DNA of 64,000 nt, taken from contig CANOSP010000002.1 of the NCBI GenBank assembly GCA_947569705.1, positions 62,001-126,000 of the forward strand, written 5' to 3'. The first letter of the stretch is position 1; the number at the start of each line of letters is the position of its first letter. Both the position numbers and the translations under genes were made by a program. The stretch is from an uncultured Erysipelotrichaceae bacterium (GTDB lineage: Bacteria; Bacillota_I; Bacilli_A; Erysipelotrichales; Erysipelotrichaceae). Shown here in pieces: positions 7,957-48,957 of the stretch. The notes under the pieces are model-generated. The model was not told where the DNA came from. It did not search any database and saw only the letters and a program-made list of their open reading frames with translations.

Positions 7957-8030
7957 ATGATAAATAGTATAGGAGAGCTGTTTATCGTATGAAATATAAA
8001 TTAAGAAATGAAGGAGAGGCGGATTTATGA
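7957..8030 (+). other. two tiny leader ORFs chained by ATGA overlaps
   Basis: An 11-codon frame runs from ATG 7957 to TGA 7990-7992. It overlaps a 13-codon frame starting at ATG 7989 and ending at TGA 8028-8030, which in turn overlaps the ATG (8027) of the surface protein. Each start has a purine-rich upstream stretch (AAGGAAG, AGGAGAG, AAGGAGAGG). The chain could couple translation, or it may be chance in a purine-rich leader. Confidence 0.35.
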
Positions 8031-11000
8031 GAAAACTGGTAAAGTCTAAGTTTTTTCGTGTGGTTTGTTGCTTGGCTTGTGTCGGTGCTGTATTAGCCGG
8101 CTATGACAATGTATCAAGTGTCAGTCTGCATGCACAAGAAAATACAACTACACAAAAATCAACTACACAAAAGACTGCACAAAAGAGTATACTGGTAGAT
8201 CATGGTGACATGGAAGGGCAAGTTTTATATCTATCAGATATTCCTTATTTAAGTGCAAAAATTGGATGGGGCACCATCGGTTTGGATAAAACCTCATCTA
8301 ACGGAGCATTGAGTATTAAATTAAACGGTTCTACCACAACGATTAAAAAAGGTATTTGGGCTCATGCGACGTCAACCGTGGATTATGATATTAGCGAGTA
8401 TAAGGACTATGATTATTTTACTACCTATTATGGTTTAAATACTACTGCCGGTGGAAACGGAAACGGTGCTAAATTCTATATTTATACCTCTGTAGACGGT
8501 AAGACATGGGATTTAAAGACGGCAGAAAATCCGACGGCAATAAAGGGTAACAATAATGCACAGAAAGCTACAATTGATATTAGAAATGCAAACTATATCA
8601 GACTTTATGCACATGATAACGGCAGCAATGCTTCTGACCATGCAATTTGGGCAGATGCGAAACTAATCAAAGAAGGCTATAATGAAAATGTAACCAGAAC
8701 AGTTGAAGAATTGGATGCCGAAATCAAGTCTAAATATACAGGGGGTCCTGTTCAAGACGATATAAAGCTGACATTGCTTCAAAGAGATTTAATTAATCGC
8801 GTAGGCCAATATAACCTGCGTAATTTCATTGACGCCAATGAAAAAAATAAAGAAACATTAGAATGGTTTTTAAATGATGAAGAGGCATTGCGTTTATGGA
8901 CAGTAGGAGGAAGACCTTTAGGTTCTTATATGAGAGCGTTAGAGGTATTGAGTACTGTTTATCAAGCACATAAAGCAGATTTGACAGATGAAACTGCGGC
9001 ACTCGGCGGTACTGCAGGAATAAAGTGCAAGGATGTTTATTTAAAGATGATGTTATCCTTGTCTTTATCACACTCAAGCGGTATCGGTTTATGGATCGGA
9101 GGCAATCAATATTCCAATGCGTTAAAGCGATATGAAATTTATAAGAGCATGTATCAGAATAATCTTCTGGAAAACCGAGCTATATTTGAACAACTGACGG
9201 TTGAGGAAATGCGTTGGCTGATGCATGTAAATATCGATGATGAAGAAATTTTATGGCTGAATGATTATTCAAAGAAATGGTCAAGCGCCAACGATCGCTT
9301 CAATCCGTATAAATATATGAAGTACACATTTGGATACAGCTATTACAGACCGCAGTATTATTCTCAGGCGAACTATGCCAAATGGGATGCAAAATATAAC
9401 TTATCAAAATACGGTGTTCCGTATCAGTCGGGAAAACCGAAGCTGTGGATCGTATTTGAAGAAGGAGCTGTCTGCGGAGGTCTTTCTAAGACAGCTGCTA
9501 ACCTGTGGGGTGTATGGGGCTGGCCGACAAGTACGGTAGGTCAACCGGGACACTGTGCCTATATCTATATGTATCATGCCGGCGGCGGCAAAATGGCATG
9601 GCAGCTGGCAAACAGTGTTGTTACGACCGGCTGGGCAAATACCTCACCGCTGGGATATATGCCGAACGGCTGGGGCAGCGGCGGCTATTATGCGACTAAC
9701 GGCGGTTCCATTAAATCAGCTTCTTATTTCTTCTTAGCACAGGAAGCACAAAACGAATATGAAAAATATGAACAAGCAGAATTGATTCTGTTATTGGCAA
9801 ATGTATATAATACAGATTGGGATATGCTGGATCAGATTTATCATGATGCATTGGATCAGGAAATTATCAATCTTGATGCTTGGTTAGGTGTTATCAATAT
9901 GGCGATCGATTCCAGATCAGGTATGACACAGGCCGAATTAATGAGCTTAGCTGAAGAGGTTGCTGACGTCATGACTTGGAATCCGCTTCCGATGTATGAT
10001 TTAACACGCAGAATCGGAACAAAAATTACTGCACCTGAATATAAAGCACAGCTGCTGATGCTTCAAAATGAGACTTTGAATAAAGCTAAAAGTGCAACCT
10101 TCTCCAATACGGTTCAATATAAAGAAGTGCCGGTAGTAGCACAGGCGATCCTCGGTGAAGTGGATTCAAGAATTGCGACCTTCTCTTTCGACGGTGCCAA
10201 TGCAGGGAAAATTGTATTGTCAAAGCAACTTCAGAGTACTCAGGTAACATGGAGCTACAGCTTAGACGGCGGCAGTACATGGAAGGATTGTTATACACCG
10301 ACTGTACAGCTTACACAAGAAGAAATAAACAGTATTGATGTAAATAAGGATATTAAGGTTCATATTGTAGGTTTGCCGAGAGAAGATAAAAATATCTACA
10401 CAATCAACATTACGAAAGGAAAATTCCCAACAGCAAGCGTTACTACCAGTGATGATGAAAACCGTATCTATGGTGTAACAGACCTTATGGAATGGACATT
10501 GGATCCAAATGGTGAATGGACTTCTTTCGCAGAAAGCAATCCATTGTTTACCGGTAATAAGAAAGTATACGTAAGATTAAAAGCAACAGGAACAAGCACA
10601 ACAAGTGATGCGGTTCACTATACATTTACTGAAAATATCATTGATGATAAACAAGCTTATATCCCATCAAAAAATTTATCAGTTGTAACAGTATCATCAA
10701 CGAGTTCGGGTAATAAAAACAATTTAATTGACGGTAACTTAAATACGGCATGGCAATCAAAAAATGTGCCTGCCTATGTAGATATAGAGTTAGATAGAGC
10801 AAGATATGTGAATGCTTTAGACTTTACATGGGATAAAAATGCAGTAATGGGCGGTTCACTTCCATACGGACATCCGAAAAATGTGACTGTGTTTGTTAGT
10901 ATGGATGGAAACGACTGGCAAACCGCTACTACCGCATCGTTACCGGAGATGCTGTCCAAAAAGACATTAACATTTGATACTCCGATTCAAGCCAAATATG

Positions 11001-13465
11001 TAAGATTCCACTGTGCGAGTATTTATGCTTCTATCGTAAATAACTTGGCAATATCAGAAATTAAATTATATGAGGATTTAACGGTTGATGATACACCGTA
11101 TGCCGAAATCAGCTACAACATTATTAAAACGACAAATAAAAATGTAACAGCGGAATTAGTCAATCCGACTAAGGATATCACAGTAACCAACAATAGCGGT
11201 AAAACAAGCTATACATTTACTAAGAACGGCACCTTCACCTTTGAATTTGTAGATAAACAAGGTCATAAGGGAAGCTCTACGGCAACAGTAAACTGGATTG
11301 ATAAGACACCGCCGGAGCTAAATGTATCTTATAGTACGACAGAACCGACCAATGAGGATGTTGTAGCGAGCTTGAGTTTTACAAAACCTGTTACTATTCT
11401 TACTAAGGATGTTGAAATCGCTACAAATGTAGATAAGAGTCAAACGATTACTTTCTTGGAAAATGATTCGTTTACATTGGAATTCCAAGATGCGTTAGGC
11501 AATATCGGCACGAAGACCGTCTCCGTTGATTGGATCGATAAGGAAGATCCGACATCAGAATTTACCTACAGTACAACAGATATTACCGACAAAGAGGTTG
11601 TTGCGACGCTTGATCCGAGTGAGCCGGTTAGAGTGTTGAATAATGACGGTAATGACACTTATACTTTCACAGAAAACGGTACATTTACCTTTGAATTTGA
11701 GGATATGGTAGGAAACAAAGGAACAGCTACCGCAAATGTTTATTGGATCAAAAAGGTTCCGCAGATTAGCGTATCCTATTCGACCAAGAAAGCAACTAAT
11801 AAAGATGTAAAAGTAACACTGAATCTTGAAGAAGGCTATCGCATAATGAACAACGGCGGTAAGAATGTATATACCTTTACCGACAGCGGTGAATTTGCCT
11901 TTGAGTATTTGGATGAAGATAATATGATGGGAAGATATCCGGTCAAAGTAGATTGGATTGATAAAGTAGTTCCTACCGGGGAATTCACTTTCACGACTAC
12001 AAAGCCGACAAACAAAACGGTTGTCGCAACACTGAAGCCAAGCGAAAAAGTGAAAATTACAAACAACGGCGGTAAGAACACCTATTCCTTTACCAAGAAC
12101 GGCTCCTTTACCTTCGAGTTTGAGGATATGGTCGGCAATAAAGGAACAGCTACAGCAAAAGTAAACTGGATTGATCGTGTAGTACCTACAGCAACTTTTG
12201 ATTACAGTACAAAGGCATTAACTAATAAGAATGTCACTGTAACATTAAATCCAAGCAAAAAGGTAACGATCTTAAATAACAACGGTAAAAATACGTATAC
12301 ATTTACGAAAAACGGTGAATTTACTTTTGAATTCGTTGATGCGGCAGGAAATAAAAACAAAGCAGTTGCGAAGGTAAATTGGATTGATAAGACACCTCCG
12401 AAGGCAACTATTGAATATACCGGTAAAGGCGGAGTCAATGATCCGGTAACAGCAATATTAAGACCTGCGGAAGATGTAACAATCATAAACAACAATGGCA
12501 GCAATACGTTTGTATTTAAGGAAAACGGTGAATTTACTTTTGAATTTACCGACAAGGTCGGAAATAAGGGAACAGCGATTGCCAAGGTAGATTGGATCGG
12601 TAAAGAACCGGTGAAACCTACTCCGGATCCAAAACCGGATCCTATTCCTGATCCGGAACCGACACCTACCCCTGATCCAAAACCGGATCCTATTCCTGAT
12701 CCGGAGCCGACACCTACCCCTGATTCGAAGCCTGATTCAAAACCGGAAATTAAACCGGATACAACTACAAAACCAAATACAAAACCAAGCAATAAGCCGA
12801 CCACAAGTACCACTGACAAAAAACCGTCAACAGGAAGTGTAAGCTATATAGAGGAAGCAAATAAGCCGTTCTATAATATGATTACAGCAGATACTTCAAA
12901 CAGCGATGTATCTTATAAAGAACTTAAGACAGAGGGCGGCAACAATAATATTGTTGCGAAGCTTCCGCAAAAACTGTTGGAAAAATATAAAGATGCAGTA
13001 TTGGCATGTCAGAATTTAACTTTAAGTGACAGTCAAAAAGAACGCTATGGAAAAGAAAGCGAAATCTATGAACTGCGCTTAGAAACAAAGGATAAACAAG
13101 CGATTGATGTGGAGCGTGAAGAAATTGAACAAACGATCCGGTTAAATCCGAATAAGACCTTTGTGGCAGTATATCAAATCAGTGAAGACGGAAGCATTGT
13201 CAGACTGAATCATGAACTTGGTGAAAACAATGAACTTGTATTCAAGAGTAATGGTTTAGGAAAATATATTGTTTCCTATCAGTCTGAAGATGTCGATGCG
13301 GATACAAACCAACCGACTGATAATGAGGTGATCAGCTCAGGCAATGACAGCAGTGAAGGAAATTCATTTAATGATATGATTATGGATTATCTTCCTTATA
13401 TCGTTGTCGCATTGGTAGCAGTCAGCGGCGGAGCTATGTTTATCTTCTTGAAAAAGAAAAACTAA
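8027..13465 (+). CDS. Very large secreted cell-surface protein: NPCBM, transglutaminase-like, F5/8C and Ig-like repeats
   Basis: The 1812-residue protein begins with a signal peptide ending near AGYDNVSS. An NPCBM-like carbohydrate-binding domain follows (about 55-215). Next is a large domain with a papain/transglutaminase-like Cys-His pair: GAVCGGLSK (Cys ~483) and QPGHCAY (His ~509). An F5/8 type C (CBM32-like) domain lies at about 874-1019, and seven Ig-like repeats of ~70 residues, each ending WIDK or similar, at about 1021-1526. A Pro/Asp stalk with a duplicated 54-nt unit follows, then a small domain and a C-terminal membrane anchor (~1785-1806) with a KKKN tail. No LPxTG motif is visible before the anchor. 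A role in binding or remodelling host or dietary glycan or protein is inferred, not shown. Confidence 0.85.
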   Translation: MRKLVKSKFFRVVCCLACVGAVLAGYDNVSSVSLHAQENTTTQKSTTQKTAQKSILVDHGDMEGQVLYLSDIPYLSAKIGWGTIGLDKTSSNGALSIKLNGSTTTIKKGIWAHATSTVDYDISEYKDYDYFTTYYGLNTTAGGNGNGAKFYIYTSVDGKTWDLKTAENPTAIKGNNNAQKATIDIRNANYIRLYAHDNGSNASDHAIWADAKLIKEGYNENVTRTVEELDAEIKSKYTGGPVQDDIKLTLLQRDLINRVGQYNLRNFIDANEKNKETLEWFLNDEEALRLWTVGGRPLGSYMRALEVLSTVYQAHKADLTDETAALGGTAGIKCKDVYLKMMLSLSLSHSSGIGLWIGGNQYSNALKRYEIYKSMYQNNLLENRAIFEQLTVEEMRWLMHVNIDDEEILWLNDYSKKWSSANDRFNPYKYMKYTFGYSYYRPQYYSQANYAKWDAKYNLSKYGVPYQSGKPKLWIVFEEGAVCGGLSKTAANLWGVWGWPTSTVGQPGHCAYIYMYHAGGGKMAWQLANSVVTTGWANTSPLGYMPNGWGSGGYYATNGGSIKSASYFFLAQEAQNEYEKYEQAELILLLANVYNTDWDMLDQIYHDALDQEIINLDAWLGVINMAIDSRSGMTQAELMSLAEEVADVMTWNPLPMYDLTRRIGTKITAPEYKAQLLMLQNETLNKAKSATFSNTVQYKEVPVVAQAILGEVDSRIATFSFDGANAGKIVLSKQLQSTQVTWSYSLDGGSTWKDCYTPTVQLTQEEINSIDVNKDIKVHIVGLPREDKNIYTINITKGKFPTASVTTSDDENRIYGVTDLMEWTLDPNGEWTSFAESNPLFTGNKKVYVRLKATGTSTTSDAVHYTFTENIIDDKQAYIPSKNLSVVTVSSTSSGNKNNLIDGNLNTAWQSKNVPAYVDIELDRARYVNALDFTWDKNAVMGGSLPYGHPKNVTVFVSMDGNDWQTATTASLPEMLSKKTLTFDTPIQAKYVRFHCASIYASIVNNLAISEIKLYEDLTVDDTPYAEISYNIIKTTNKNVTAELVNPTKDITVTNNSGKTSYTFTKNGTFTFEFVDKQGHKGSSTATVNWIDKTPPELNVSYSTTEPTNEDVVASLSFTKPVTILTKDVEIATNVDKSQTITFLENDSFTLEFQDALGNIGTKTVSVDWIDKEDPTSEFTYSTTDITDKEVVATLDPSEPVRVLNNDGNDTYTFTENGTFTFEFEDMVGNKGTATANVYWIKKVPQISVSYSTKKATNKDVKVTLNLEEGYRIMNNGGKNVYTFTDSGEFAFEYLDEDNMMGRYPVKVDWIDKVVPTGEFTFTTTKPTNKTVVATLKPSEKVKITNNGGKNTYSFTKNGSFTFEFEDMVGNKGTATAKVNWIDRVVPTATFDYSTKALTNKNVTVTLNPSKKVTILNNNGKNTYTFTKNGEFTFEFVDAAGNKNKAVAKVNWIDKTPPKATIEYTGKGGVNDPVTAILRPAEDVTIINNNGSNTFVFKENGEFTFEFTDKVGNKGTAIAKVDWIGKEPVKPTPDPKPDPIPDPEPTPTPDPKPDPIPDPEPTPTPDSKPDSKPEIKPDTTTKPNTKPSNKPTTSTTDKKPSTGSVSYIEEANKPFYNMITADTSNSDVSYKELKTEGGNNNIVAKLPQKLLEKYKDAVLACQNLTLSDSQKERYGKESEIYELRLETKDKQAIDVEREEIEQTIRLNPNKTFVAVYQISEDGSIVRLNHELGENNELVFKSNGLGKYIVSYQSEDVDADTNQPTDNEVISSGNDSSEGNSFNDMIMDYLPYIVVALVAVSGGAMFIFLKKKN

Positions 13466-13680: not shown

Positions 13681-14187
13681 ATGAATATTACAACAGAATC
13701 CATTGAGTCAATGAACCGCAATCCTTACAATCTCACCTATGATGAGTATTGTAAAAGAATTTTATGTAATAAGCAGATATTGGCTCGAATTATTAAAGAA
13801 TGTGTTTCGGAGTTTCATGATATTCCCTTAGCCGATATTCCCAATTACATGGAAAATGATCCGACAATGAATATTAATATCGATAAGGCTGCCGATAAAA
13901 TATATGGAATGAATACTGAGGATATATATGTACACGGTGCTAAAATCATCTTTGATATTATAGTTGGCATCAGATTACCGGATTCACCAAACAAGGACAA
14001 TATCGGTTTAATTCTAAATATCGAAGCACAGGCAAACAGTAATACACCTTATCCGTTATTAAACCGGGCAATTTATTACTGCAGTAGATTGCTGGCAAGA
14101 CAAAAGAATCGCCCTGACGGCTTCCAACATTCAGATTTTCAGAATCTAAAAAAAAGTCTATTCGATATGGATTGTGATGAATTCTAA
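13681..14187 (+). CDS. Rpn/PD-(D/E)XK nuclease family protein, N-terminal part (copy 2, frameshifted)
   Basis: This is a paralogue of the fragments at 1082-2039 with a different first ~20 residues (MNITTESIESMNRNPYNLTYDEYC). The same probable catalytic block is present (IIFDIIVGIRL ... LILNIEAQA). It carries the same A8 tract, so this frame also stops early, at 14187. A 213-base stretch (14068-14280) is identical to 1460-1672 of copy 1. The ribosome site AAAAGGAGA lies about 11 bases before ATG 13681. Confidence 0.75.
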   Translation: MNITTESIESMNRNPYNLTYDEYCKRILCNKQILARIIKECVSEFHDIPLADIPNYMENDPTMNINIDKAADKIYGMNTEDIYVHGAKIIFDIIVGIRLPDSPNKDNIGLILNIEAQANSNTPYPLLNRAIYYCSRLLARQKNRPDGFQHSDFQNLKKSLFDMDCDEF

Positions 14188-14668
14188 GAAAGCAACTGAG
14201 GGAGTAATGAATCAATATTCAATCAGTGAGAAATGTTTAAAAAGAGTGTATCATTTCGCTAAAGAAGAATATGATAAACTGACAATCATCATGATTTACC
14301 CCAACAGTAAATATGATGTGAATGATGATAAATATGATTTAATGGAGATGTTGCACATCTTATTTAAAGCAAAAATGACGACACAGGAGAAAAAGTGCCA
14401 ATTAGAAAAAAACTATGGTATAATGATGACAAAGAAAACGGAACGGGAGGTTGAAGGTATGTGTAACTTGTCTCAAATTCATGTGGATGCAGGACGTAAA
14501 GAAGGATTGGCGGAAGGACTGAAAGTTTCATCAAAGATTATCCTAACTATGATGAAGAAAACGAATCAAACCGCAGATGAAGTAATGAAAATGTTAGACA
14601 TAGACAAAGAACTTCAACCTAAACTAGACAAACTTATCAATGCACCATCTGATGAGAACGAGCAATAA
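14174..14668 (+). CDS. Rpn family protein, C-terminal part (copy 2, frameshifted)
   Basis: It continues the protein of 13681-14187 one base out of frame. Beyond the MIYPNSKYD block it carries an internal GGGAGG/ATG start (14459) and a tail with one GRKEGLAEG unit, then a helical segment TMMKKTNQTADEVMKMLDI. The frame is open for 164 codons, so decay, if it is decay, is recent or counteracted. Confidence 0.65.
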   Translation: MMNSKKATEGVMNQYSISEKCLKRVYHFAKEEYDKLTIIMIYPNSKYDVNDDKYDLMEMLHILFKAKMTTQEKKCQLEKNYGIMMTKKTEREVEGMCNLSQIHVDAGRKEGLAEGLKVSSKIILTMMKKTNQTADEVMKMLDIDKELQPKLDKLINAPSDENEQ

Positions 14669-40552: not shown

Positions 40553-41584
40553 TTATTTAAGGTGTTTATATTTTATATCGTTTTGTGTGTTCATAAGTTT
40601 GCTTATTTCAGGTTGAAGTTCTTTGTCTATGTCTAATATCTTCATCACTTCATCCGCTGTTTGATTTGTTTTCTTCATCATATTATTAATGATTTTTGAT
40701 AAAATCGCCAGTCCCTCAGCCAGTCCTTCTTTGCGTCCTTCTTTACGTCCTTTCGCCAATCCTTCTTTACGACCGGCATCCACATGAATTTGAGACAAGT
40801 TACACATACCTTCAACCTCCCGTTCTGTTTTCTTTGTCATCATTATACCATAGTTTTTTTCTAATTGACACTTTTTCTCTTTTGCCGTCATGTCTGCTTT
40901 AAACAAGATATGTAACAGCTCCATTAAATCGTATTTATCATCATTCATATCATATTTACTCTTTGGATAAATCATGATGATTGCCAGCTTATCATACGTT
41001 TCTTTAGGGAAATGAGACGCTCTTCTCAAGCATGTTTCACGGATCTCATATTGATTCATTACACCCTCGGTTGCTTTCTTGGAATTCATTACGATCCATA
41101 TCGAATAGACTTTTTTTAGATTCTGAAAATCTGAATGTTGGAAGCCGTCCGGACGATTCTTTTGTCTTGCCAGTAATCTACTGCTATAATAAATTGCCCG
41201 GTTTAATAACGGGTAGGGTGTATTACTGTTTGCCTGTGCTTCGATATTTAGGATTAATCCGATATTGTCCTTGTTTGGTGAATCCGGTAATCTGATGCCA
41301 ACTATAATATCAAAGATTATTTTAGCACCGTGAACAGATATATCCTCAGTATTCATTCCATATATTTTATCATTAGCTTTATCAATGTTTTCATTCATTG
41401 CTGGATCATTCTCTATATAATTCGGTATCTCAGCTAACGGAATATCATGAAACTCCGAAACACACTCTTTAATAATCCTAGATAATATTTGTTTATCACA
41501 TAAAATCCTTTTACAATATTCATCATAGGTGATTGGGCGATCGTTGCGATCAATCATTTCATTTAATTCATTTACTTTAATCAT
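40553..41584 (-). CDS. Rpn/PD-(D/E)XK nuclease family protein (copy 3, full length)
   Basis: This is the intact member of the three paralogues, 343 residues from ATG 41584. The probable catalytic block is IIFDIIVGIRL ... LILNIEAQA. The A tract that breaks copies 1 and 2 is A7 here, so the frame passes through NLKKVYSIWIVMNSKKATEG. The C-terminal region has three units of the type GRKEGLAEG, the most of the three copies. An internal GGGAGG/ATG start lies at 40807. The family is annotated as recombination-promoting nuclease or putative transposase; some members act in phage defence. Confidence 0.88.
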   Translation of the reverse strand: MIKVNELNEMIDRNDRPITYDEYCKRILCDKQILSRIIKECVSEFHDIPLAEIPNYIENDPAMNENIDKANDKIYGMNTEDISVHGAKIIFDIIVGIRLPDSPNKDNIGLILNIEAQANSNTPYPLLNRAIYYSSRLLARQKNRPDGFQHSDFQNLKKVYSIWIVMNSKKATEGVMNQYEIRETCLRRASHFPKETYDKLAIIMIYPKSKYDMNDDKYDLMELLHILFKADMTAKEKKCQLEKNYGIMMTKKTEREVEGMCNLSQIHVDAGRKEGLAKGRKEGRKEGLAEGLAILSKIINNMMKKTNQTADEVMKILDIDKELQPEISKLMNTQNDIKYKHLK

Positions 41585-41778
41585 AGACTTTGTCATCTCC
41601 TTTCGCTTGTCTATAATTCAGCTTTAAAAAGCCCCTATCTTTTATATACACGCTAAAAAGAGAGATCCCTAAAAATTTATAAAAAATTTTTTAATTTCTT
41701 CAATTGACGCACATTGTGAAACAACTGTTTACCTCTATCCAGACAAAAGCATACAAAAACATATAAAAGCTATTAAAA

Positions 41779-41822: not shown

Positions 41823-42854
41823 TTATTCTTTAAATTCAAATTCAATTTTATAAATGTCATTTTCCGCAGTTGTCGCAATCAAGAAATGATTTCCGACAAA
41901 ACGAACAGTCAAGTCCTTTAATACCGTTTCTTTCTCCGCTGATATTTTATATCCGCTATCATTATCATAATTACGCAGGACGATATTATGCTCGGTATCC
42001 GTGAGAACACCGATACCGTCATTATCACCGAAATAACTTAGATTTGCCCAATCAGATTTCGGTACCGAATACGTTTTCTGTAATTCAAAACTGCGATTAT
42101 AAAGGAATTCTTTCTCACCTCGATATACAGCCACAGCATCATCACTTACCACAAAATAATCAAATGCTTGATCGGTAAGCTGACTCGTAATATTACCGGA
42201 TTCTGTATCAATTACATAGATAGATTTTGCTTGATCATTAATGACGGTAAGAAACAGATCACTTTGATACAGACTGATTTCAATATCTCCGGATAATTGA
42301 TCATTAATCGCAACGGTTGCCATTTGAATAAGATTATCATCAAAATAGCGTTTCATATCAATTCTTTCTTGATTTTGAGCAATGATCATCAGAGAAGTTC
42401 CTAAATGTTCCAGTTGTATTTTAGCTTCGTCGGTAAAGCGTTCAATTAGTTCATCATCTTTTCCGTCTTCATACCGATACAGATCAACACTGTTTTTCTC
42501 ATCTTTTGAAGCCGTAAGATAAAACAGCTGATCCTTGATCATTAAATGATCACTGACACACGGTTCTTCCTCCAGCGGAAAGCTGCGAATCCAATCATTT
42601 TCTAATACAAGCAGTCTGTTTGTATTAGTTTCCGTCGTAAACTCAGCACCGTTGAGCATCATGCCGTATAGATAATCATTATCGCATCTTGTAAAGTACG
42701 GCATAAAGTTATCGTCATTTTCAATGTCTGTGATTCTAGTGATTTTGTAATCGAGGTCCTTGTAAGTCAAGGCTGTTGCTTCCGGTTCTGAAGTTTGCTT
42801 TTGACATGCGCACAAGCACAAAAGGAAACAAAGCATAATCATTATTTTTTTCAT
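41823..42854 (-). CDS. lipoprotein with propeller-like repeats, unknown function
   Basis: The 343-residue protein has a lipobox (CLCACQ, Cys about 17) and a secreted body with recurring short beta motifs (FLTVINDQAKSIYVIDTESGN, FLIATTAENDIYKIEFEF) suggestive of a beta-propeller. It is the last gene of a run of lipoproteins and small membrane proteins on the minus strand. I do not recognise a family. Confidence 0.75.
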   Translation of the reverse strand: MKKIMIMLCFLLCLCACQKQTSEPEATALTYKDLDYKITRITDIENDDNFMPYFTRCDNDYLYGMMLNGAEFTTETNTNRLLVLENDWIRSFPLEEEPCVSDHLMIKDQLFYLTASKDEKNSVDLYRYEDGKDDELIERFTDEAKIQLEHLGTSLMIIAQNQERIDMKRYFDDNLIQMATVAINDQLSGDIEISLYQSDLFLTVINDQAKSIYVIDTESGNITSQLTDQAFDYFVVSDDAVAVYRGEKEFLYNRSFELQKTYSVPKSDWANLSYFGDNDGIGVLTDTEHNIVLRNYDNDSGYKISAEKETVLKDLTVRFVGNHFLIATTAENDIYKIEFEFKE

Positions 42855-42894: not shown

Positions 42895-43383
42895 TTACTT
42901 ATTGAATTCACATTGCGGAACATAGCCTGCATCACCGCTGCGCTGTACTTCCCATTTGGCGTTTGGTTTTTTGGTTAAAAAGTAAGTGAACTCCTGCGGA
43001 TACTTCTCATTGAGGTTAAACTTATCCCAAAATGAAATGATGTCAGTTTTTATGCGGATTAACATGAATTGCATAGAATCAAGATCCGGTGCAGGTTCGT
43101 CTGTATTATTTGCCAAATCAGCGATTTCCTGTTTTAAGCAAGCATCTCCAAGATAGCTGATCTCAATAATTTCAGTTTCACGAAGTGTTTCACCGTATGC
43201 TTTTTCATTGTATCCGGTGACAAATTCATCAAGGAATTCATGATATTCTTCCTCAGTGTATAATTCTGATTGAAGCGCATTCACCTGTATATCGGATAAG
43301 GTGTTTTTGGAGCCGCAGGCAGTGAGTAAGCCCGCACACAGCAGTGTTGACAGAATAATGTAACGTATTTTCTTTTTCTTCAT
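42895..43383 (-). CDS. small lipoprotein, unknown function
   Basis: The 162-residue protein has a lipobox (LLTACGSK, Cys about 23) and an acidic helical body (EEEYHEFLDEFVTGYNE). It lies in the lipoprotein island, 40 bp upstream of the next gene. No family is recognised. Confidence 0.75.
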   Translation of the reverse strand: MKKKKIRYIILSTLLCAGLLTACGSKNTLSDIQVNALQSELYTEEEYHEFLDEFVTGYNEKAYGETLRETEIIEISYLGDACLKQEIADLANNTDEPAPDLDSMQFMLIRIKTDIISFWDKFNLNEKYPQEFTYFLTKKPNAKWEVQRSGDAGYVPQCEFNK

Positions 43384-43411: not shown

Positions 43412-43639
43412 TTAATGAGGATGATCGGGATTGAACAGATGAGAATAGCTGTTCATTCTTACAAACAGATAGATTCCGATGATCACCAACAATAAAGAAA
43501 TCATTATTTCTTTTCCCATCATCAAAATATCGGCAGATAACGAAATATCGTATAATACAATTTTTAATAAACCGATAATTACGGGAATAAAGCAAAGATA
43601 ACTCCATTTACTTGTAACATTGATCCATTTCTTTTTCAT
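43412..43639 (-). CDS. small membrane protein, two segments
   Basis: The 75-residue protein has hydrophobic segments at about 13-32 and 42-60 (IMISLLLVIIGIYLFV). ATG 43639 has AAAGGAGTG upstream, better than the in-frame ATG codons further up. It has no recognised family and is part of the island. Confidence 0.7.
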   Translation of the reverse strand: MKKKWINVTSKWSYLCFIPVIIGLLKIVLYDISLSADILMMGKEIMISLLLVIIGIYLFVRMNSYSHLFNPDHPH

Positions 43640-43786: not shown

Positions 43787-44236
43787 TCAGCCTTTCATAA
43801 AGCTTTTACTTTTGCAGGATTTAATAACACCGAGTGTAACTAAAAAGTAAATTAAGATATATAAATATAAGTGATCTGCCGCAAATAACATATAGCTTAC
43901 GATCTTTTCGGGAATACCGGTGCCGAGAATGATAGAGATAATCGGATAAAGCATAAAGAGAATATAAGCCGCTAACACTTCAATGATCAGATAAACAAAA
44001 TGTTTATGAATGTGAAAAGCACTGATAGCTTCGCCTTTGATCCAATCAGCACTGACTTTAGCGATGACGCTGCCTAACAGACAAGGCAAGATTAATTTAC
44101 AGAATAATTGCAGGGCAGCGAGCAGATAATTGACTTCATAGCGATTCGCATGAACAGGATTTATTTGATCGGAACAGAGGATAAGTGCGGTCAAGCCAAA
44201 CATGGCCGCGATATATAAGATTTGTTTTTTATTCAT
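43787..44236 (-). CDS. membrane protein, four segments, unknown function
   Basis: The 149-residue protein has four hydrophobic segments (ILYIAAMFGLTALILC; LLAALQLFCKLILPCLLG; YLIIEVLAAYILFMLYPI; LYLYILIYFLVTLGV). No catalytic motif is seen. An AAGGAGC ribosome site precedes the start. It could be an immunity-type or anchoring protein, but nothing in the sequence decides this. Confidence 0.7.
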   Translation of the reverse strand: MNKKQILYIAAMFGLTALILCSDQINPVHANRYEVNYLLAALQLFCKLILPCLLGSVIAKVSADWIKGEAISAFHIHKHFVYLIIEVLAAYILFMLYPIISIILGTGIPEKIVSYMLFAADHLYLYILIYFLVTLGVIKSCKSKSFMKG

Positions 44237-44346: not shown

Positions 44347-45036
44347 TTATTCATCGGGAATAAGCTGTGAAAGGTTTTCCCATTTACCGGTGATATTGTT
44401 TAATACTTGAATTTGTGCTTGTGATGAGAGATCTCCTTTGATTTCTCTCAGACCGCCTTCCCAACCAATGATCGGATACGCACCTTTTTCCGGTGAATCT
44501 TTTGAGTCGTTTTCTCCTATATAGATCAAATAAGTTTTTCCCGCTTCAATATCAATATCATCTCCGAACATGTGTTTCACATATTTGGGCTGTTGATCCA
44601 TATGTTCCGCAATTTTTTGTTGGTGATCAGGAAGCAGCCCTTGATAATACTGTTCAAATGTCAGGATAGCACCCATACGCAGATAGGGAACTTGTTGATT
44701 CACGAAAAGATTCCCTTTTTTAACAGCCAATATCGTCATTTTTCCATAGGTGAAAGGAAAAACATATTCGCCGGTTTGCTCATTGTAATTACTACTGCCG
44801 TCAATTGAATCAACTCGTGCAATTACAACCTGTTCGGCAGTCTGATACATTACCTCAGGATTTCCGTAATTCAAAGAAACGTCTGCTTGTGAAGCTAAAT
44901 TCATAATTTCAGCTTCATCAATTTGTTCATATGCATTGAAGTATGAAGTGTGTTCCATAACTTCATGGTTGAGCTTGCAGCCGTTCATTAAAAACAGAGT
45001 GCTTAATAACGGAATGAAAAGCTTGTTCTTTTTCAT
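44347..45036 (-). CDS. lipoprotein, unknown function
   Basis: The 229-residue protein has a lipobox (LFLMNGCK, Cys about 20). The body contains the segment VVIARVDSIDG ... YGKMTILAVKKGNL ... EAGKTYLIYIGEND, which reads like a small beta-barrel of the kind seen in secreted Bacillota proteins of unknown role. It is a member of the island. Confidence 0.75.
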   Translation of the reverse strand: MKKNKLFIPLLSTLFLMNGCKLNHEVMEHTSYFNAYEQIDEAEIMNLASQADVSLNYGNPEVMYQTAEQVVIARVDSIDGSSNYNEQTGEYVFPFTYGKMTILAVKKGNLFVNQQVPYLRMGAILTFEQYYQGLLPDHQQKIAEHMDQQPKYVKHMFGDDIDIEAGKTYLIYIGENDSKDSPEKGAYPIIGWEGGLREIKGDLSSQAQIQVLNNITGKWENLSQLIPDE

Positions 45037-45088: not shown

Positions 45089-45493
45089 TTATATATTCTC
45101 CCGGCAAAACGCCAAGTATCCACCTTCTGCATAAATATAGATATAGCTGTCGTCATTAGGATTACTGAATATTTCAGCACCGACGCGATCGGCATTGGAC
45201 GCAGTTGTATAACACTCGCGATTCGGTACGGTATCATAGCCTGCTTCACTGCCGATAATCTTATCTTTCGAATCAGCGAATCCCTGCGGCAGTTTACTGC
45301 GTTTGTCAGAAATCTTATAATGCTTGCCGTGATAGTAAATCATCGGTTTTATACCGTTATGTTCAGGTGGTTTCTGCGCAGTAGAATTATGTGTTTGGTC
45401 AGGATCGTTTCCGCTTGTATTACAACCGCTTAATGTAATACAGCCCGTAACGATCATCAGCGTAAAAATTAATTTTAATGTAGATTTTTTCAT
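45089..45493 (-). CDS. small lipoprotein, unknown function
   Basis: The 134-residue protein has a lipobox (CITLSGCN) and a secreted domain with MIYYHGKHYKISDKRSKLPQGF and RECYTTASNADRVGAEIFSN, containing the G-x-EIF pattern of small secreted NTF2- or inhibitor-like domains. ATG 45493 gives a normal signal peptide; longer in-frame starts lack a ribosome site. It is part of the island. Confidence 0.7.
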   Translation of the reverse strand: MKKSTLKLIFTLMIVTGCITLSGCNTSGNDPDQTHNSTAQKPPEHNGIKPMIYYHGKHYKISDKRSKLPQGFADSKDKIIGSEAGYDTVPNRECYTTASNADRVGAEIFSNPNDDSYIYIYAEGGYLAFCRENI

Positions 45494-46174: not shown

Positions 46175-46228
46175 TTGTTCTCCTTCCTGAAAAGAGCGCT
46201 GATGTACGTCTTTTCTTTCTATACTTAT

Positions 46229-46296
46229 ATTATAATGGTCAGTATGTAAAAAGGCAATGCTCAGTCAGTGAGCGGTCGATATTTTCACTGAACGGT
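46229..46296 (-). promoter_or_regulatory. promoter P2 with LytTR-type direct repeats
   Basis: On the minus strand ACCGTTCAG (46296-46288) fits the published LytTR consensus, and ACCGCTCAC (46276-46268) is a near copy 20 bases on. A TATAAT -10 box lies at 46234-46229. This spacing upstream of a promoter without a good -35 is typical of LytTR-activated promoters. It would drive the gene at 46174 and probably the island behind it. Confidence 0.7.
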
Positions 46297-46402
46297 CAGT
46301 TTTTATTTGCGATTAACAATAATACACGAATCTCAAAAATACCGTTTTTTACATCGGTAATCAGCGTTCCGTTATATTTATCGGTGATCTCTTGAACGAT
46401 TG
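46296..46402 (-). pseudogene. remnant of a GHKL histidine kinase C-terminus
   Basis: The frame IVQEITDKYNGTLITDVKNG ... LLLIANKN and stop is a diverged copy of the end of the kinase at 47046-48290. Nothing upstream of it belongs to a kinase, so this is a fragment left by duplication or recombination. Confidence 0.85.
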
Positions 46403-46537
46403 ATTTTTATAATCAGGAACCTTTCTATCAGTCGGTATGTTTATCACGTTATCACAACAAGATCATCAAAAAATGTTACTTAATAGTTTATCAATGTCGC
46501 AGAGATTTTATAAAGCTTAACTAAATTATTATAAACT

Positions 46538-46567
46538 AACAGGGGATAGATTGCTCTTTCCCCTGTT
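46538..46567 (-). terminator. hairpin after the small membrane protein gene
   Basis: Perfect 9-bp arms AACAGGGGA / TCCCCTGTT with a 12-base loop. The downstream T content is modest, so it may be a processing or weak terminator hairpin. Confidence 0.6.
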
Positions 46568-46583
46568 TCACTTACTGTTAATA

Positions 46584-46748
46584 TTACCGTTGGCGTTTCC
46601 TTCTCAAACCGATTACAATAACATTTAGCATAGCGAGTATAAATAAAGCTACCCAGTTATTATAGGTACCGAGGTTATATAACCAATAGTTTCCTATCAG
46701 TAATAGTGAACCTAGGAATAAAATAATTGCTTCATGTGACTTCTTCAT
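46584..46748 (-). CDS. 54-residue membrane protein
   Basis: ATG 46748 has AAGGAGGAAAAGG just upstream. The product has two hydrophobic segments (AIILFLGSLLLIGNYWLY and NWVALFILAMLNVIVIG) and a basic tail RRKRQR. It is the second frame in the short transcript from LytTR promoter P1. Its size and form resemble small immunity or stress peptides, but no family is recognised. Confidence 0.65.
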   Translation of the reverse strand: MKKSHEAIILFLGSLLLIGNYWLYNLGTYNNWVALFILAMLNVIVIGLRRKRQR

Positions 46749-46766
46749 TTACCTTTTCCTCCTTAT

Positions 46767-46868
46767 TTAACCCTTTTGCCTATAAAAGTCTCTTGGTGAT
46801 CTACTTCCATCAAAAGTTTTTTCTGCCTTGTTCAGTGTTTTTAAAAGGTTAGAGCTAAAATCACTCAT
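46767..46868 (-). CDS. 33-residue hydrophilic micro-ORF
   Basis: ATG 46868 to TAA 46769-46767 encodes a charged peptide (MSDFSSNLLKTLNKAEKTF, then DGSRSPRDFYRQKG). The upstream ribosome site is weak (GGATAG or GCGGT). It lies about 110 bases inside the P1 transcript and 18 bp before the 54-residue gene. No double-glycine leader is present. It may be a real small protein or chance. Confidence 0.4.
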   Translation of the reverse strand: MSDFSSNLLKTLNKAEKTFDGSRSPRDFYRQKG

Positions 46869-46955
46869 AATTACCGCTGCTATCCATTTAACATGCTTTA
46901 TTGATACTGATACAAACAATGGCTTTATTTACTGCTTTCGTATGCAATATACCGA

Positions 46956-47154
46956 ACGTCTATTCTTTCTATACTTATATTATAATGGTCAGTATGTAAA
47001 AAGGCAATATACAGTCAGTGAGCGGTCGATATTTTCACTGAACGGTCAGTTTTCATTTGCGAATAACAATAATATACGAATCTCAAAAACACCGTTTTTT
47101 ACATCGGTAATCAGCGTTCCGTCATATTTATTAGTAATTTCTTGTATGATTTTT
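46956..47154. repeat. 200-bp duplication, copy A (HK tail plus promoter)
   Basis: This is the intact counterpart of 46206-46404 and covers the real end of the histidine kinase gene and the promoter behind it. Confidence 0.9.
46979..47046 (-). promoter_or_regulatory. promoter P1 with LytTR-type direct repeats
   Basis: ACCGTTCAG (47046-47038) and ACCGCTCAC (47026-47018) lie on the minus strand with TATAAT at 46984-46979. It starts at the stop codon of the histidine kinase and reads away from it into the two small ORFs. Confidence 0.7.
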
Positions 47155-48290
47155 AATCCATAGCCGTGTTCTCGGTGATCCTTATCGGTTTGAAAATCAA
47201 TTGTTTCGCGGCATTTGTTTTGTGCGACGATTAATAGCTGCGATCGATTTCCGTTGATTTTAAGCTGGAAAGATGATTCATGAATTCGTCTTAATTCTTC
47301 ACAAGCATTATCGATGATATTGGAAAGCAGTGAGATCAAATATTTTCCGTCAAAGACAAAATCCTTGGTGATCTGTAAATCTAAATGAAAGGTGATGTCA
47401 GCGTATTCATTCATTTTCTGCTTTAGAATCGCATCGATAAATATATTGCCTGAAATTGCCGTTTTTGCGGAATCAACGGAATTACACAGATCTGTCAGAA
47501 TCGTATTTGCTTCATCGTATTTTTTATCTTTTAATAAAATAGATAGAACAGACAATTGATTTTTCATATCATGACGCATCTTTCTGATATTGTCCTGTTC
47601 TTTTTGAAGCTTTGTGACATAATCAGAAGTAATATTGATTGACTGCTCAATGATTTCCGCTTCGGATCGACTTTGGATAAAGCGGCTGTAGCGATAAAAG
47701 ATATAGAAATTGGTTACCATTACGAGTGTTAATAATACCGTATATAAAAGGATTTCGGTATTGTCTTTAGCCACATCAAGCAAGTAATTAAATATGAATT
47801 CCGCAATGATCGTTATTACAATTGTTATACGTTCGGTCTTCAAATCCTGCATTCGGAACTTTACAAGAAATTTCACAACAAACCATAATACAATAACGGT
47901 AAAGACTTTCAAACACAGGGCAAACACGACTCGTTCATAACCAAACACAAAAGTATTCGCTATATTAACGCCGAACTTGATCGCAATCGAGATAAAAAAG
48001 GTGATGCAAAAGTTAAAGGTGATGTCAATCAACAGCGCATAGAAAAAATAGTTTAAGGTGCGTCGATGTGCATGTAAAAACAAAAAGCCGGTGACTAAAA
48101 ATACATCGATGGCATAGGATTGCGTACCGTATAAAAAAATGCGATCTTTGATAAACTGAATAACGGAAATCAAAAGAATACCGGTGATGATTTTTCGCCG
48201 ATCCCACTGTTTGTCGATTAACATACAGTAAAAATATAATAAATAAGTATAGTCTATGAGATTAAAGCCGAATTCTACCGCCCATTCCAT
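47046..48290 (-). CDS. GHKL sensor histidine kinase (AgrC/ComD type)
   Basis: The 414-residue protein has six to seven N-terminal membrane segments (to about residue 215), a coiled linker, the phosphoacceptor box MRHDMKNQLSVLS (His about 240), the N-box LLSNIIDNACEE and the G-box HGYGLKIIQEI. This is the class 10 kinase form used in peptide signalling with LytTR regulators. It follows the response regulator by one base. No signal-peptide gene with a recognisable precursor is next to it. Confidence 0.9.
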   Translation of the reverse strand: MEWAVEFGFNLIDYTYLLYFYCMLIDKQWDRRKIITGILLISVIQFIKDRIFLYGTQSYAIDVFLVTGFLFLHAHRRTLNYFFYALLIDITFNFCITFFISIAIKFGVNIANTFVFGYERVVFALCLKVFTVIVLWFVVKFLVKFRMQDLKTERITIVITIIAEFIFNYLLDVAKDNTEILLYTVLLTLVMVTNFYIFYRYSRFIQSRSEAEIIEQSINITSDYVTKLQKEQDNIRKMRHDMKNQLSVLSILLKDKKYDEANTILTDLCNSVDSAKTAISGNIFIDAILKQKMNEYADITFHLDLQITKDFVFDGKYLISLLSNIIDNACEELRRIHESSFQLKINGNRSQLLIVAQNKCRETIDFQTDKDHREHGYGLKIIQEITNKYDGTLITDVKNGVFEIRILLLFANEN

Positions 48291-48291
48291 A

Positions 48292-48957
48292 TTATCCGCT
48301 CCTTGCGAAAGCTTCCGTTAAGCTTTTCCAATTACGTCTGCTTACTTTGATCACATCTTTGTTTTTCATTTTAATACTTGTTGAGATTTTCTGTAGCTCT
48401 GAAATATTGGTGATCTGAACCAAATGGCTTCGGCTTGCGTAGAAAAAATGAGTATAATCGATCGGCAGCTGTTTCATGGATTTATAGGTTAAGGAATATT
48501 TTTTAGTGAAAGTAACCAAATAAACAAACGTATCCTCAGTGTAAAAGTATTGAATATGATCAGAAGAAATCGGTAAAATACCTAAATCGGTATGAAATTG
48601 AATGATGGTGGCTCTTTGATTTTTTATTTGGCAGATTTTCGGAATCAGAACATCTTCCATTCGATCCTTTACAATATAGCCTCTGACATTAGGCAGAAAA
48701 GAATCAAAAATATATTTATCATATGAGGTGATAAAAAGAATGTCCTGAAACAAAGACGCATAATTTTTAACAAAGGTGATGCCGTCTGTTTCAGGCATTT
48801 CAATATCCAGCAACAGCAGTTCATAAGCGGTATTGCTGTGAAGTAATTCCGCTGTGCTCGCAAAAGTATCGACAGCCGCAAAAGGATCATTTTTATAAAT
48901 GATCTCACTGATTTTATCTCTGTAGATTTTTTCATCATCTAAAACGGCAATTTTCAT
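48292..48957 (-). CDS. LytTR family response regulator
   Basis: The 221-residue protein has a receiver domain (AVLDDEKIYRDK, phosphoacceptor in LLLLDIEMPETDG, Lys in VRGYIVKD) and a LytTR DNA-binding domain (YTEDTFVYLVTF ... FFYASRSHLVQI). LytTR proteins bind pairs of 9-bp direct repeats, two sets of which lie downstream at 46268-46296 and 47018-47046. An extended -10 (TGTTATAAT, hexamer 48992-48987) precedes the gene. Confidence 0.92.
   Translation of the reverse strand: MKIAVLDDEKIYRDKISEIIYKNDPFAAVDTFASTAELLHSNTAYELLLLDIEMPETDGITFVKNYASLFQDILFITSYDKYIFDSFLPNVRGYIVKDRMEDVLIPKICQIKNQRATIIQFHTDLGILPISSDHIQYFYTEDTFVYLVTFTKKYSLTYKSMKQLPIDYTHFFYASRSHLVQITNISELQKISTSIKMKNKDVIKVSRRNWKSLTEAFARSG

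Follow-up and report, generated by a model that had tools for sequence, protein, structure and literature searches.

The 64,000-nucleotide (nt) stretch of DNA from an uncultured Erysipelotrichaceae bacterium that was analysed here (the window) contains a locus of the agr type without its signal genes, in which the end of the kinase gene and the adjoining promoter are present twice. The duplication is real and well bounded. The reading that we favor, with reasonable rather than high confidence, is that of an agr/fsr-type locus that lacks its own signal genes, has its kinase and regulator intact, and carries an internal copy of the operator and promoter before the gene of a 190-amino acid (aa) protein. 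All features of the locus are on the minus strand.

The Duplicated Segment

Positions 46206-46401 and 46956-47151 form a single direct repeat of 196 nt, found in a repeat search to be gapless, 92% identical and spaced 750 bp from start to start. A genome-wide BLAST search with the repeat returned the second copy at E = 1.7e-78, and all other matches were no better than E = 0.05; the two copies are each other's sole real matches across the whole genome. An earlier note on this DNA had described a segment of about 200 bp present twice and 750 bp apart, which both searches bear out. It had also pointed out that every matched element lies 750 bp from its partner. The register is indeed exact, but it amounts to one fact, a single ungapped repeat, and not to several independent ones. 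Each copy comprises the 3' end of a GHKL kinase gene (the final ~34 codons), the stop codon, a direct-repeat operator and the -35 and -10 elements, the order in both being kinase stop, ACCGTTCAG-N11-ACCGCTCAC and TTGCCT-N17-TATAAT.

The operator next to the intact kinase (GACCGTTCAGTGAAAATATCGACCGCTCA, 47019-47047) and its identical copy (46269-46297) were located by a genome-wide pattern search. The promoters that go with them, called P1 and P2, respectively, were found by pattern match, each with a -35 of TTGCCT, a 17-nt spacer and a -10 of TATAAT (P1, 46979-47007; P2, 46229-46257); taken alone, -35/-10 consensus matches of this kind are no commoner than chance. When up to three mismatches are allowed, operator sites number two in the genome of the window (G000) and one each in G002, G005, and G006, the congeners that have the locus. 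No further copies were found elsewhere in the window's genome at this threshold, and a reversed control pattern gave no matches in the genome-wide search. The operator is present at the kinase-adjacent place in all four genomes, and in the relatives it lies ahead of agrB.

The Locus and Its Relatives

The regulator gene (48292-48957) encodes an AgrA-like response regulator with a receiver and a LytTR domain (PF00072, 3.9e-9; PF04397, 3.9e-14), and the kinase gene (47046-48290) an AgrC-like membrane histidine kinase with a GHKL ATPase domain (PF14501, 2.6e-17). The window thus has both the LytTR-domain regulator and the multi-pass GHKL membrane kinase of an agr/fsr system, the membrane part of the kinase being judged from sequence alone. 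The identity of the kinase to the congener kinases is 98, 71, 67, and 66% (98% for G006 and 66-71% for G005 and G002). Its score against the AgrC-Staph equivalog is 17.8 bits, far under the cut-off of 500, and on that score it is classed as AgrC-like and not as a staphylococcal AgrC. Between the window and G006, the ratio of nonsynonymous to synonymous substitution rates (dN/dS) is 0.04 for the regulator and 0.15 for the kinase (codons 1-378), indicating that both have been kept.

Of the seven genomes of the genus compared, four have the locus, and in each of these it occupies the same chromosomal position, with yabP, yabQ, and a divIC-like gene as neighbors. Apart from the window, these are 'Bacterium c-19' (G006), the closest relative, and two Erysipelotrichaceae/Erysipelotrichales genomes (G005 and G002). 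The full order in the congeners is LytTR regulator, AgrC-like kinase, promoter, agrB, agrD, and a downstream group of genes for lipoproteins and membrane proteins (the island). By its sequence the locus is of the agr/fsr quorum-sensing type, and it is the intact AgrB of G005, not the window copy, that qualifies the family. Kinase-tail fragments lie between regulator and kinase in G005 (L030:7700-10412) and G002 (L031:8320-9754), and G005 has a tandem pair of kinases, whose cytoplasmic parts are near-identical and whose membrane sensors have diverged. The kinase 3' end has repeatedly been left behind by rearrangement; only the copy in the window took the promoter along. Just upstream of the locus, G005 and G002 have a gene for a Fic-domain protein with an N-terminal helix-turn-helix (L030:5556-6449 and L031:6260-7153) that is missing in the window and G006. 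The slot after agrD also varies among otherwise similar loci: it holds a secreted Amidase_6 protein and a lipoprotein in G005 (L030:11143-12688), and a 174-aa secreted protein and a paralogue of the 190-aa family in G002 (L031:10485-11560).

Decay of the Signal Genes

In G005, an intact agrB (PF04647, 61 bits against a cut-off of 23; 1e-15) comes next after the promoter equivalent to P1. Its product shows the His-x6-Cys spacing by eye, and behind it lies a 36-aa AgrD-like open reading frame (ORF), MKNKFASVLSKVLIKVGQTFDRNVSPHNFYKPKKYK. The AgrD-like ORFs of G005 and G002 score 14.5 and 13.9 bits, respectively, against TIGR04223, under the cut-off of 19. They contain a predicted lactone core, SPHNF and SPQGY, followed by Y-x-P-K. 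Their position, size, Ser-x-x-x-[F/Y]-Y-x-P-K context and likeness to the AgrD-like peptide of a second agr locus in the window's genome point to AgrD. Serine-based lactone peptides are made by S. pseudintermedius (RIPT[STGFF]) and E. faecalis (QN[SPNIFGQWM]) (PMC12312760), and by analogy the SPHNF and SPQGY rings would be lactones.

A deletion has removed agrB of the window from the start up to and including the catalytic His/Cys region; a 3' remnant is all that is left, so that the locus has no AgrB here. The remnant runs on in frame into an agrD relic (46767-46954), as seen by alignment to the agrB relic of G006 and by a z of 13 against the AgrD of G005 and G002. The fused relic contains a 33-aa ORF (46868-46767), MSDFSSNLLKTLNKAEKTFDGSRSPRDFYRQKG; the YxPK motif and the ribosome site of agrD are gone, and the relic has no NCBIfam match of its own. 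The earlier note had seen two micro-ORFs following the upstream copy, the first of which (46919-46767) is this relic and the second (46748-46584) a real gene. In G006, agrB has early stops and agrD is gone; the agrD lesions of the window and G006 differ. In G002, a 1-nt frameshift in a run of A, where a sequencing error is possible, ends agrB after 79 codons. In all, agrB is broken in three of the four genomes with the locus (window, G006, and G002).

In the genome of the window, the sole AgrB found is that of the second agr locus, which lies on another contig. This locus is apparently complete (L077:938-5622, on contig C5 and outside the window) and is also present in G006 (L078). It contains genes for a LytTR-type regulator, a GHKL kinase, AgrB (PF04647, 3.9e-20), and the AgrD-like peptide MLNFFGQFMLKIASLTDTYSLWDFYTPKRYED. 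A further gene encodes a secreted, bacteriocin-like protein of 235 aa that is rich in Gly and Ala and scores very weakly against the EntV family.

With its own signal gone, the window kinase would now answer other input, which may be the peptide of neighbors, that of the second locus, or no peptide at all. A bolder version of our reading, offered tentatively and as somewhat improbable, is that of a receiver-only circuit. The genus, one of gut bacteria, would repeatedly break its agr signal genes, as in the three genomes above, and keep receptor and regulator under selection, the kinase listening to peptides from neighbors or from the cell's own second locus; this species would have added an operator-promoter before the output genes.

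Function of the Second Promoter

The promoters served by LytTR regulators of the AgrA kind are preceded by paired 9-bp repeats, to which the regulator binds (AgrA: PMC4227749; PlnC/D: PMC2714321). By analogy with these regulators, the phosphorylated regulator of the window would bind the pair of 9-bp direct repeats that immediately precedes a poor -35 and activate both P1 and P2, with P1 driving a 54-aa gene and P2 the lipoprotein island.

The second copy has not changed evenly. When G006 is taken as the reference, the copied kinase tail (46296-46401), an untranslated relic, has six private substitutions in 103 nt, of which five alter the amino acid, against none in 80 nt of the copied promoter (Fisher p = 0.036). 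A drifted tail beside an unchanged promoter suggests that P2 works and is maintained. The proposal of the earlier note of a cassette in which the end of the kinase gene went along with a LytTR-type promoter is supported. The alternative that P2 is unused debris in a locus that is decaying as a whole would fit the broken agrB of three genomes and the drift of the adjacent tail. It is unlikely, however, as the P2 operator, -35 and -10 are unchanged and the reading frames of the kinase, the regulator, and the island proteins are uninterrupted and evolve under purifying selection.

A strong hairpin (46538-46567; -18.6 kcal/mol, z = -4.0, matched by 0 of 200 shuffles) with a poor U tract follows the 54-aa gene and is a possible terminator or attenuator. 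Its counterpart in G006 is not significant (z = +1.0), the strong hairpin being present in the window only. If the hairpin acts as a terminator, P1 transcripts would be shortened, which suggests that P2 serves the island. By way of P2 the island would then probably stay under regulator control, even though the transcript from P1 reaches the hairpin first.

Several points weigh against the favored reading. The hairpin is without a proper U tract, and a terminator scan did not call it. The selection test on P2 is weak, being a single post hoc comparison. Regulator binding, transcripts, and expression from P1 and P2 are predictions from sequence evidence. The AgrD assignment leans on sub-threshold scores and on position, and the agrB/agrD relic could still encode a 33-aa peptide. 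Finally, the purifying selection on regulator and kinase is averaged over the time since the window and G006 split, and may partly predate the loss of the signal.

Origin and Age of the Second Copy

In G006 the order is kinase, promoter, agrB relic, 54-aa gene, and 190-aa gene, and the site of the second copy is empty. The G006 junction reads TATAAAAAGGAAAGCCGTACATC, whereas the window has TATAAAAATC, the copy, and GAAAAGACGTACATC. CGTA is common to the donor (ahead of the agrB start of G006) and the target, and TAAAAA is common to both at the opposite end. Such microhomologies match the expectation of illegitimate recombination, by which the last ~34 kinase codons and the operator-promoter would have been copied 750 bp downstream, landing directly before the 190-aa gene inside an operon already under the regulator; a deletion in G006 would also be compatible with them.

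Over the 196 nt, the divergence between the copies is 7.7%, about the distance of each from G006. Between the window and G006, divergence is ~2% in flanking coding DNA and reaches 15% in other intergenic DNA. The duplication therefore appears to date from about the time when the window and G006 split, and the ages of the copies are compatible with gain as well as with loss. An ancestral P2, lost in G006 and retained in the window, is accordingly a serious contender, if the less probable course: besides the similar distances, TATAAAAA and TATAGAAA flank the copy and would permit its deletion. However, G005 and G002 have one operator each, so that either repeated loss or a gain just before the split would be needed.

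It is also conceivable, but rather unlikely, that the second copy arose not as a short cassette but as part of a duplicated module of kinase and promoter, perhaps with agrB and agrD, whose kinase body was deleted later. The number of kinases does vary, as in the G005 pair and the tail fragments of G005 and G002. The tandem kinases have no promoter between them, however, and the intergenic DNA flanking the copy matches that of G006 collinearly to either side, which would require a clean trimming to 196 bp. The import of a divergent 946-bp block was considered in view of the region 46.2-46.96 kb, most of which is 7-21% different from G006; it is unneeded, since other intergenic DNA reaches 15% (49.2-49.4 kb).

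The Downstream Genes

The 54-aa gene (46584-46748) encodes a small membrane protein and has an AGGAGG ribosome site, homologues in G006, G005, and G002, and a dN/dS of 0.25. The first gene after P2 (45602-46174) encodes the 190-aa membrane-anchored protein, with homologues at the same locus of these three genomes. It is followed by ORFs for lipoproteins of 134 aa (45089-45493; dN/dS 0.32) and 229 aa (44347-45036), and by four genes that are syntenic in all four genomes, encoding membrane proteins of 149 aa (43787-44236) and 75 aa (43412-43639), a 162-aa lipoprotein (42895-43383) and, last in the island, a 343-aa lipoprotein (41823-42854).

P2 directly precedes the 190-aa gene and the lipoproteins, and the downstream copy does lead into a lipoprotein island, as the earlier note had said. 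Its further claim, that the promoter copy captured new genes for the regulator, could draw on this position but is very improbable. In G006, G005, and G002, where the locus has the same chromosomal position, the genes for the 190-, 149-, 75-, 162-, and 343-aa proteins already lie downstream of a single promoter, so P2 recruited no new genes, and capture of the island is rejected by synteny. Of that account the copied cassette survives and the enlarged regulon does not; the agr identity of the locus and the remains of agrB and agrD had been missed.

Predicted structures say little about island function: the 190-aa protein (AlphaFold mean predicted local distance difference test score 74) and the 162-aa protein had no informative match in the PDB, the alignments being shallow. 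At three other loci of the 190-aa family that were inspected (a second locus in G002 and two in another genus), no homologue of the regulator, kinase, or agrB of the window locus was found.

Other Features of the Window

A repeated gene is present in three copies (1070-2039, 13681-14668, and 40553-41596), the first with a weak PDDEXK_2 transposase match. In two of the copies the reading frame is broken into overlapping ORFs; the third reads through the corresponding seam as a single frame of 347 aa, a pattern suggestive of a frameshift. The surface protein encoded at 8027-13465 (1812 aa) combines repeated modules with NPCBM and F5/8 type C domains and has a membrane anchor at its C terminus.

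Comparison with Known Systems

The locus presents an agr-type circuit caught with signal production gone and with reception and output preserved and rewired. Should the kinase still respond to peptide, the organism would be a natural listener without a voice, in which eavesdropping is testable. The locus also illustrates how an internal promoter may originate, a gene end being copied together with the promoter downstream of it. For orphan agr receptors no direct precedent was found in the open-access literature, which is not proof of absence.

The closest known systems are agrBDCA of S. aureus, fsrBDCA of E. faecalis, and lamBDCA of L. plantarum. They share with the locus a LytTR regulator, a GHKL kinase, AgrB and AgrD-like genes (in the relatives of the window), and a direct-repeat operator upstream of the signal-gene promoter; the predicted Ser-lactone peptide has its parallel in those of S. 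pseudintermedius and E. faecalis (PMC12312760). Unlike in these systems, the order here is response regulator, histidine kinase, promoter, agrB, agrD, and island; in the window agrB is deleted, agrD is a relic, and there is a second, internal operator-promoter. RNAIII was not found either, an Rfam scan of 41-52 kb of the window giving no hit. The plantaricin regulon of L. plantarum C11 (PlnC/PlnD) likewise has several promoters with a tandem pair of 9-bp repeats just upstream of the -35, served by one LytTR-type regulator (PMC2714321), but the window has two sites only, both in one operon, and one copy still carries a kinase tail. Natural isolates of S. aureus that are agr-defective have inactivating mutations in the agr locus, as the window does; in the window, however, it is the signal genes that are broken, and the receptor and regulator are retained.
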